DNA from: Polytrichum commune
Taxonomy: Eukaryota > Streptophyta > Polytrichopsida > Polytrichales > Polytrichaceae
Assembly: GCA_950295325.1 (NCBI GenBank)
Contig: OX485808.1
Location: forward strand, 23,394,527 to 23,458,526
Length of the DNA stretch: 64,000 nt
Reading direction: 5' to 3'
Under the pieces are notes generated by a model. That model did not search any database, had not been told where the DNA came from, and was given only the letters and a program-made list of their open reading frames with translations. Position numbers and translations under genes: made by a program. Each line of letters opens with the position of its first letter. Position 1 is the first letter of the stretch. This document shows positions 46,036 to 52,072 of the stretch, piece after piece.

Positions 46036-49000
46036 TCAAGGAAAAATTCCGCTCACGCGGTAGGAGGCCGCAATCCTCTCAATAGCAATCAGGTATGCAG
46101 CTGTCCTAAAGTTGCATCCCTGCACAAGCTCACAATTGGCACTTGGCACTTGTCACTTTGTAATTAACTGATCCAAACAGGAGGATTGCCGTGCATTCCT
46201 GAAGCTCTCAAGAAGTTTTCAAAATAAAAATGACACAGTTGCCCTCCAATCCTGCAGGGATGAGAAAGAACAAATATAATTTTTTCTTAGAACCTCAACA
46301 TTACAAAAAATTGGAGGAAGAGTAATATAGAGACGCACCCTTTCTTCAGCTGTGCGTTTGACATTCTCCCAGCTCACCAACATAGTCTCTTCTAAGCCAG
46401 AATAAACAAAATCGACCTCTCTATTCCTGCAGAGTGACACATCAGGAAATCGTTCATCAGGCGCCAGGTGCTTTGGTGATTAATGGAAGTTGAGTGAGGG
46501 ATAGACAGTATTCTCATACGAAGGAAGAAACCTCATAGAATCACGAGTTCTAAACATGAAGCAAATAGTAACATACCCCTTGACAACTTGGCTTCGTACT
46601 TCCTCAGAAAACTTATGGCCATTTCCGAACTCATTTTCCAGGGCGTCAACCAACACCTTCAAACATAAAGCAAGGTTTTAGCGCATGCAGTGGAACGTGG
46701 AAAGCTTGGCTCACTGCTTAGTGCTTAACATTTTACATCCGGTTGCCTATAGTTACCAATTTCTACCAACCAAGACATTGGAACTTCCTTAAAGTTTCGA
46801 TGTCAAAACACACAAATTTTACTGCTGTCATCACCCTCAAGAACCACTGAGATTTGGTGTGAAGGGACATTGCTGATACTTGGGTTCAAAGGTTGGTTGC
46901 TCTCTTTAGAGGGTGTTTGTCTGATAAGTGTTTATTATGTTATTGTGACAACCGTCCTGTGATAGTCTTTGAGAAGATTTAGAAATCACCAGTAAAATTC
47001 CAATTGTAGTCTCCTTTGGGTTTCAACCATATAAATACTGGGACGGCAGGTGAAGAACTAATGGCTACTTGACAATTTGGCAATCCAAGCCCTCCCATAA
47101 ATAGCAGGATCTGATCTCACCCTCTTGCCATGCTCTTCCATCCGTCGGCTCATACGCCCAAAATGAATGTGGTTCAAATTCTTAAGCCACTCGAAATAAG
47201 ATACGGTAACTCCTCCCTGCAGTCACATTGAATCGTCATCATCATCACCATCATCACTCTGAACCGAGATTGGCATTGACAGACCTTTACATAACCAAGA
47301 AACTCCAACTTGCCCACTTCTGCGAACAAAAACTGCTCGTCTTCACAATTTAGAACAGCTCCTTTGCCCACCACAGATCCGCTACAGCACCTTGAGGATG
47401 GGGTGTTATCGTACTCAGAGCCTAAAGAAGAAAAGTCCTTGAAACTTACAGCATTCAGTAGCAAATCAGGTAGGATAACAATTTTATTTTCCTCCAAGAT
47501 AGTCTCTGCTGAAGCAGTGACGGGTCCGTTCGCAGCTTCCGCCACAATTTTGGCCTGAAAGTTTTCAGAGCAATTTAACAAAATCGCTGAAATAAGATCA
47601 AAATTCATACTTTCGCAATGAGAGCAACCACATTTATGACAATATTCGATACCTACAGACCTTTCATAAGTCAAAACATCAGTGAGCTCTATCAACATCT
47701 AAAAAGCAGTTATGAATTAATATCTCAGGAAGGCTATCTGTTGAGACCTTAATGTTTCTGGCATTTCCTGAGTGTATCTGCGATTCAAGAGCTGCTGGTA
47801 TCAGCACGTCACAAGGAAGCTCCAAAATGCCTGCTGAATTTTTAACCTGTAAAAAGACAACACCTTAGTAGACAATCCACTTTTCATTTGCATAAAGTCG
47901 AATCAGTCCAATCAGAACATCTATTTTCTTCCTTGCAAGAGCAGGAGAATCTGCTTGATTTAATAGCAAATGCAGCGAGGATTCTGAGGAATGCTTTCAG
48001 ATTATTTTGAAGATTATATAGTAAACTGCATACCGTCTGAGCACCAGGAAACCCGGTGATTGTCCCCTTTTTCATGTGGTGGGCCTTGAGGGCAGAAATG
48101 TCCAGCCCTTTCATGGACTCGTCTATTAATCCTCCATCAGCCTCAGCAATTGCAATAATTTTTCCTCCTGCTTCATGAATGCTCTGATTTCCCATACAAG
48201 ATTACTCACTCAGACCCATTACTTTGGGAAGTCTAAACATCGTGGTAATCCCAGCTGTCAAAAACATTTGTACCATAGTTTCACAATTTGAGCACACTGC
48301 ATTTAGATAGCTTGGCATGTGGAGATGATGCATGGACTTACTTCAATTGTGTGACGACCAACATTTCCATAACCCTGTACAATGAAAGTCTTTCCCTTCA
48401 TCCCAGTCCTCAACCCCAACTTTGACATCATTGCCTGCAGTAAAGTAGGGTACCACAAGAAATTAGGTCCATAGGATTTATTGCTCATGCTTAATTCTGA
48501 AGTTGTAATATTTTCAGGTGGACTCCACAACGAAACCTAATGATAAGCTTGTTTCTCGTGATGACGTCCCCTGCAACTCCTATATGATCTCACACAGTAT
48601 CTTATGTGAGTGCTCATTGGTGGATCAGAAAGTGTCGGAGTTACCTAGTCCTGTATCTAACACATGGAGTTTCGAATGTGAAAGGCATTAGTGAACAAAT
48701 CATTGTTAAAATTATTCTTCTGCTTTGATATCCACAGGACATGAAAAAAAGACAGGAGAGAGAACCTGGTCATTAAGAAACTCTCGTAAACAGTAGAAAA
48801 CACCAAGGCCCGTTGCCTCTTGCCTTCCATCAATACCTCCCTGCAAGTCAGGCAGAGGTTACATTTCAACGGGTCGCAAGAAACTCAATGTGTTAAATTA
48901 TTCTTTAGGCATTGTGTAACATACTTTTAGGGCCCCACAACCAAGACAAGATATCACACGAAAACATAAAAAGTCTTTTCAGCATTGACCTTTTATCACA

Positions 49001-52000: not shown

Positions 52001-52072
52001 CAGGATTCGCATATGTGCAAGCGGCTTTGCCACGCAGGGGCCAACCCTCGCCATGCGCATCGCCATTGTCAT
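46036..52072 (-). CDS. GDH: Mitochondrial glutamate dehydrogenase, GLUD (animal/protist) type
   Basis: Oxidative deamination of glutamate to 2-oxoglutarate and ammonium. Exons, 5' to 3' on the minus strand: 52072-51844, 50887-50796, 50404-50299, 50013-49885, 49580-49489, 49221-49096, 48840-48766, 48434-48342, 48183-48034, 47846-47748, 47554-47450, 47216-47121, 46656-46577, 46426-46339, 46119-46036. They join without a leftover base to 547 residues; human GLUD1 has 558. Residues 1-60 are R/A/S-rich without acids, like a mitochondrial presequence. K180 in VPFGGAKGG is the catalytic lysine; GYGNVG (304-309) binds the nucleotide. [16 protein letters not shown] and the ~40 residues after it correspond to the animal antenna region. 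An in-frame TGA lies 15 bases upstream of the first ATG. The splice acceptor before DPSKYT was chosen because it removes a 20-residue insertion absent from the family. No break is seen. Confidence 0.95.
51388..51520. repeat. 64-bp tandem duplication in GDH intron 1
   Basis: GTGTCAATTTATGTG (51388) and GTGTCAATTGATGTG (51452) start two degenerate units ending in ATGTCAAAAACT. The surrounding intron is unusually rich in TGTCA/TGTCAA motifs. Confidence 0.6.

Follow-up and report, generated by a model that had tools for sequence, protein, structure and literature searches.

Can a plant gene encode a glutamate dehydrogenase (GDH) bearing the antenna of the animal GLUD enzymes and, if so, does the control by GTP and ADP come with it? 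This question is raised by a locus in the stretch of Polytrichum commune DNA analyzed here (64,000 nucleotides, hereafter the window), in which the original prediction had recognized a plant gene for a 547-residue, mitochondrial-like enzyme following animal and protist GDH. PMC11050691 describes the antenna as first appearing in ciliates and as unique to animals. PMC7326016 describes it as absent from other GDH types, and PMC5372004 as absent in lower organisms, the latter stating that allosteric control arose together with the antenna. According to PMC11050691, replacement of the antenna in human GDH abolished the response to both ADP and GTP. Titles and abstract openings of openly licensed papers yielded no antenna GDH from a plant or from Bacteroidetes, which constitutes a weak negative. 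Our reading, which we hold to be quite probable, is that of a nuclear plant gene for a mitochondrial, NAD(H)-preferring or dual-coenzyme, hexameric GDH of the long (antenna-bearing) clade, with no mammalian GTP control and doubtful ADP activation.

Fifteen exons can be joined in frame on the minus strand, from an ATG at 52072 to a stop at 46036, to give 1644 nt and 547 residues, the length originally predicted; the 24-residue and 10-residue motifs pointed out at that time are both present in the spliced protein (hereafter, plant GDH). The splice sites were predicted from homology and consensus, and all 14 introns follow the GT–AG rule. The features are listed below, residues being numbered in plant GDH unless stated to be bovine.

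46036..52072, minus strand: complete GDH gene from ATG to stop, with 15 exons coding for 547 residues (splice model, phmmer, Pfam)
51844..52072, minus strand: exon 1, presequence, with a candidate cleavage site close to RHF↓S (residues 33–36) (splice model, composition)
50796..50887, minus strand: exon 2 (splice model)
50299..50404, minus strand: exon 3 (splice model)
49885..50013, minus strand: exon 4, 17-residue marker stretch; Lys144, Lys168, Lys180 (splice model, site mapping)
49489..49580, minus strand: exon 5, FIGPSI (splice model)
49096..49221, minus strand: exon 6, DVPAPD (Asp222), VTGKP (splice model, site mapping)
48766..48840, minus strand: exon 7, 13-residue marker stretch; bovine GTP-site positions 209, 213, 217 are Asp, Glu, Leu (splice model, site mapping)
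48342..48434, minus strand: exon 8, coenzyme loop QGYGNVG; Glu314, at the exon end, occupies bovine GTP-site position 261 (splice model, site mapping)
48034..48183, minus strand: exon 9, bovine GTP-site positions 262 and 265 are Ser315 and Glu318; Glu328 is bovine Glu275 (coenzyme) (splice model, site mapping)
47748..47846, minus strand: exon 10 (splice model)
47450..47554, minus strand: exon 11 (splice model)
47121..47216, minus strand: exon 12, 16-residue marker stretch, antenna start (from about 47168 down) (splice model, alignment)
46577..46656, minus strand: exon 13, entirely antenna (splice model, alignment)
46339..46426, minus strand: exon 14, last part of the antenna (down to about 46420) plus the pivot-helix region; bovine His450 and Arg459 correspond to Tyr499 and Val508 (splice model, site mapping)
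46036..46119, minus strand: exon 15, C-terminus RTAAY...GIFP and stop (splice model)

Both ELFV dehydrogenase domains are detected with Pfam (E-values of 1.7e-50 and 2.9e-60), so the homology is not due to chance. When the PDB is searched with phmmer, mammalian GLUD1 comes first (464 bits), worm GDH scoring 436 and Arabidopsis GDH1 275. An NCBIfam search matched six families, none of them above the cut-off. Lys90, Lys114, Lys126, Asp168, Arg211, and Ser381 (bovine numbering), which we take to be the catalytic residues of GDH, are all kept along with Glu275 (7/7), as they also are in the 80 best bacterial loci presented below (80/80). The gene is real and probably functional. Arg and Ala abound in the first 60 residues, which contain six Arg, one Lys, and no Asp or Glu, a composition in keeping with the mitochondrial-like presequence that had been proposed; an RHFS motif begins at residue 33, and the presequence may be cleaved near RHF↓S.

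The stretch following the 10-residue motif, at the place of the animal antenna, counts 45 residues in plant GDH, 53 in bovine GLUD1, and 50 in worm GDH, versus five in AtGDH1, AtGDH2, and 8s38; the announced ‘about 40 extra residues’ were, therefore, right. This insert also places plant GDH among the long GDHs, in which about 43–53 residues separate YFEWLKN from the pivot helix. Exon 13 was considered as a possible spurious exon, and this was ruled out by its alignment with the antenna of bacterial long GDHs, where 43 residues are found in all 52 rows aligned.

These bacterial relatives come from the scan of a prokaryote genome collection with the plant GDH core, which gave at least 567 candidates encoding a relative, of which the best 80 were retained. 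Each of these 80 matches through the last core residue, with 51–55% identity, the bovine enzyme being 50% identical over the same core. Among the aligned sequences, the core identity to plant GDH reaches a median of 55.5% over the 52 bacterial rows (at most 58%, over 421–422 columns, for L003), compared with 52.6% for bovine GLUD1 and 51.0% for the worm enzyme. The spacing from the 10-residue motif to SGL is 49 residues in each of the best 80 of the at least 567 candidates, 51 in plant GDH, 59 in bovine, and 56 in worm. Long GDHs were found in Bacteroidota, Kapaibacteria, Ignavibacteria, Planctomycetota, and Acidobacteriota; since full-length antenna GDHs occur in several bacterial phyla, the insert is not an animal trait. 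In evenly drawn samples of genomes, each around a centre genome picked as a gene carrier, a match to the last residue was obtained in 26 of 61 genomes of the Hymenobacter phylum (25/60 without the centre), 8 of 59 for the phylum of a Planctomycetota MAG (7/58), and 12 of 60 for that of an Acidobacteria MAG (11/59). The remaining matches listed in these samples stop at or before residue 421, and the seven of them that were aligned (L091–L094, L119–L121) have five residues at the antenna place. Viral contigs provided two loci, L081, a short form, and L082, dropped due to an interrupted reading frame.

The bacterial long GDHs resemble plant GDH in their full-length match, their 43-residue antenna, the absence of most GTP-site residues, and the same GIFP C-terminus, but they have neither introns nor a presequence, while the antenna of plant GDH is two residues longer and its sequence sits on a separate long branch. 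As judged from these alignments, the plant GDH antenna is of the short kind, also present in many bacteria. One bacterial relative, from Hymenobacter fodinae (L004), was folded with AF2, using 25 other loci of the best 80 as the alignment. The model has a mean pLDDT of 89.3, with block values of 66–86 within the hairpin, and its helices 360–373, 380–401, 407–415, and 419–444 correspond, by alignment, to the pre-antenna, ascending antenna, short, and pivot helices. Its best PDB match is bovine GDH (TMq 0.91, versus 0.80 for AtGDH2); the 39 best matches are all bovine, human, or worm GDH (TMq 0.86–0.92), 8qf0 and 8s3g being worm GDH according to the match listing, and short GDHs occupy ranks 40–50 (TMq 0.75–0.81). 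By this model, the predicted fold of the bacterial enzyme is that of bovine GDH and comprises the antenna helix; the alignment of plant GDH to this family suggests a similar antenna hairpin in it, at residues 449–493.

Four main trees were built without the antenna columns. All of them separate a long clade (plant GDH, animals, and bacteria) from a short one (AtGDH1, AtGDH2, 8s38, and bacterial short forms) with 100/100 support, and the same split receives an SH-aLRT of 99 in a quick tree that included the antenna columns, all of the best 80 bacterial loci, and L081. Plant GDH, therefore, groups outside the seed-plant GDH1/2 clade, in agreement with the original prediction, and a diverged seed-plant GDH1/2 paralogue is ruled out by this split. 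Seed-plant NAD-GDH1 and GDH2 (PDB 6yeh and 8owm) are glutamate dehydrogenases with the same catalytic residues, but they fall in the separate short clade, share only 38–40% core identity with plant GDH, and have five residues in place of an antenna. If the host also has GDH1/2, such plants would possess two distantly related mitochondrial GDHs. A side observation concerns the short clade itself, in which the three seed-plant-type rows group with one short bacterial sequence, L092 (96/89, 98/91, and 100/100), among the seven or eight short bacterial rows sampled; L092 belongs to genome G007, reached via the Planctomycetota MAG locus L078.

Animal GLUD1 (bovine and human GDH1; PDB 8ar7 and 6dhm) and worm GDH (8qf0) belong to the same long clade as plant GDH, and share its catalytic residues and antenna place, but differ by a longer antenna; plant GDH has the GIFP C-terminus and lacks the 18-residue insert found near the bovine N-terminus. 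The gene may be an ancient eukaryotic GLUD, passed down from an early eukaryote along with that of animals, kept in some plants, and lost in the seed plants using GDH1/2, a history to which we give slightly less than an even chance. The 14 introns suggest a long stay in a nuclear genome, and plant GDH is the sister of the animals (95/78) in a tree comprising 27 of the best 80 loci and an approximate insect row, to which nine bacterial rows had been added and from which two long branches (L115 and L099) had been dropped. Nevertheless, replacing the insect with worm 8qf0, with the same 27 loci, moves plant GDH to the bacteria, as the sister of all of them (82/46). The first two trees, with 18 of the best 80 loci, place it inside the bacteria, together with Hymenobacter and Saprospiraceae/Lewinella rows (94/89 with bovine, 88/90 without). 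These two trees, along with the slightly higher core identity to bacteria than to bovine GLUD1, argue for another history, possible though on the unlikely side, in which a plant or algal ancestor acquired the gene from a Bacteroidota-like bacterium, independently of the animal gene. However, the join with the single Hymenobacter row is weak (93/33 and 84/21) and the placement varies with sampling. In the quick tree, plant GDH sits near the bacterial base, at an unresolved node. Distant matches (L095–L098, L100–L102), repeat fetches (L083–L090), L109, and L122 were left out of the trees.

Topology tests and signature positions bear on both histories. A grouping of plant GDH with bovine (p-AU 0.147) or with animals (p-AU 0.39) is not rejected, which is compatible with common inheritance and counts against a separate gain for the first of the two, as does a clade of all bacteria shutting out plant GDH, not rejected either (p-AU 0.092). 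Among positions that are rare in short GDHs, 10 are common to plant GDH and the bacteria, and 2 to plant GDH and both animals, a count of derived-looking positions that speaks for the bacterial side; however, nine bacterial rows submitted to the same count share 14–20 with bacteria and 0–4 with animals, so that plant GDH remains below all of them. The antenna of 45 residues, close to the 43 of bacteria but not to the 50–53 of animals, weighs against inheritance in common with animal GLUD. Reading a bacterial donor directly off the ranking of the bacterial scan was rejected, because the place of plant GDH changed when the sampling changed. The claim that the protein follows animal GDH, thus, stands as far as the antenna clade and the location of the insert are concerned, but not for animal GDH in particular, as bacterial long GDHs are equally or slightly closer, and have in common with it the short antenna, the GIFP end, and more of the derived-looking positions.

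Whether the antenna comes with allosteric control was addressed by mapping the nucleotide sites by alignment, seven letters being checked against the bovine numbering. Eight GTP-site residues were taken from PMC8228935, and two further ones (His209 and Glu292) from a sentence of PMC7536180 that deals with GTP stabilization and whose wording names NADH. From bovine to plant GDH, His209 is replaced by Asp, Ser213 by Glu, Arg217 by Leu, Arg261 by Glu, Tyr262 by Ser, Arg265 by Glu, Lys289 by Ser, Glu292 by Lys, and His450 by Tyr (Tyr499), and Asp447 is kept, that is, 1 residue out of 10, or 1 out of 8 with the PMC8228935 set alone; several replacements are of opposite charge. Regarding the ADP contacts, Arg86, Asp119, Val120, and Phe122 are kept and Arg459 becomes Val508 (4/5 of the mappable contacts kept); the published contact Q85 is His85 in the bovine sequence used and was not counted. 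Bovine Arg459 (human Arg463) is needed for ADP activation, according to PMC5372004 and PMC8228935. Among the best 80 bacterial loci, 77 carry Glu at position 213 and 68 have T, G, S, N, or A at position 459, single GTP-site residues being kept in some of them (Arg217 in 20/80, Tyr262 in 22/80, and His450 in 12/80).

The human HI/HA variants R274C, R322H, S498L, and H507Y (precursor numbering), three of which are said to lower GTP inhibition in PMC11050691, point in the same direction as the site mapping, the four corresponding positions (bovine 217, 265, 441, and 450) being all substituted in plant GDH. The human H454Y variant, which reportedly weakens GTP inhibition, has at the position of bovine His450 the Tyr that plant GDH carries naturally. 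This mapping makes GTP inhibition of the mammalian type unlikely in plant GDH, and ADP activation doubtful, so the GTP/ADP regulation hinted at by the original prediction is disfavored for GTP and questionable for ADP. It could be objected that the antenna is kept, with a length that is fixed throughout the bacterial rows, that the four ADP contacts retained make some ADP effect possible, that GTP could be bound by other residues, and that the antenna replacement in human GDH links antenna and nucleotides in that enzyme, as does, for allosteric control in general, the joint origin stated in PMC5372004. A plant antenna that mediates GTP/ADP control, by means of separate sites or of these ADP contacts, nevertheless appears quite improbable in view of the 9 GTP-site residues out of 10 replaced, the loss of Arg459, and the HI/HA positions.

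We, therefore, return to the reading of a long-clade GDH devoid of the mammalian switch. The sequence itself establishes the gene structure, the place in the long clade, the insert of antenna length, the retention of the catalytic residues, and the replacement of GTP-site residues and of the ADP-critical Arg; the steps that follow are a proposal. The enzyme would be imported into mitochondria, as its N-terminal composition suggests, and a single residue hints at a preference for NAD. It would assemble as a hexamer, the antenna hairpins meeting in threes on either trimer, and the antenna would link the movements of the subunits as the enzyme opens and closes. Catalysis would be normal, interconverting glutamate and 2-oxoglutarate, with neither GTP inhibition of the mammalian kind nor, perhaps, ADP activation. 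The likeliest function for the plant antenna would, thus, be a nucleotide-independent role in turnover and subunit coupling, and the antenna would predate the purine-nucleotide sites of animals, from which it could be separated. An antenna insert, with most GTP-site residues missing, in the plant gene and in all of the best 80 of the at least 567 bacterial loci stands against the published animal-only descriptions, and makes an antenna function without purine-nucleotide control testable. A broader scenario, which we regard as rather unlikely, is that the antenna is a bacterial invention, practically fixed at 43 residues over several phyla, which took separate routes to plants and to animals, the GTP/ADP switch of animals being added later to a subunit-coupling antenna. 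If true, plant GDH would be a eukaryotic antenna GDH without the switch, and the two functions would be separable in nature.

The plant nature of the locus, also part of the original prediction, is corroborated by the adjoining gene:

30378..41355, plus strand: LKR/SDH, plant-type bifunctional with interdomain, outer match bounds (Pfam, tblastn)

Three of the six open stretches tested contain Pfam domains above the cut-off, namely AlaDh_PNT_N, Saccharop_dh_N, and Sacchrp_dh_C (PF05222, PF04455, and PF16653), Saccharop_dh_N being, we assume, the LKR/SDH interdomain region. Using an approximate Arabidopsis LKR/SDH query, tblastn recovers 19 pieces in order, 16 of them at 45–84% identity; the other three (27–33%) extend into non-coding sequence or gaps. 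Judging by this one neighbor, the host would be a plant, probably outside the seed plants, and an algal, protist, or contaminant contig appears very unlikely. The two genes are convergent, tail to tail, and about 4.7 kb apart. In lysine breakdown, LKR uses 2-oxoglutarate, SDH releases glutamate, and GDH returns glutamate to 2-oxoglutarate, which closes the loop. Plant GDH would perhaps serve amino-acid breakdown, for example that of lysine via this neighbor, and the adjacency may also have arisen by chance.

Scans of the window for tRNAs and Rfam families found nothing. The GDH gene is flanked by inverted copies of a dispersed repeat family (43366–43902 and 53966–54442; 294 nt at 89% identity plus shorter pieces), which occurs again at 2612–4932, one part of it forming a 153-nt tandem array of 5 copies. 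Another tandem array, with a 123-nt unit in 2.6 copies, is found at 24639–24952. Finally, the 2-kb block upstream of the GDH start (52001–54000) has a GC content of 51%, the other 2-kb blocks ranging from 34 to 46%.
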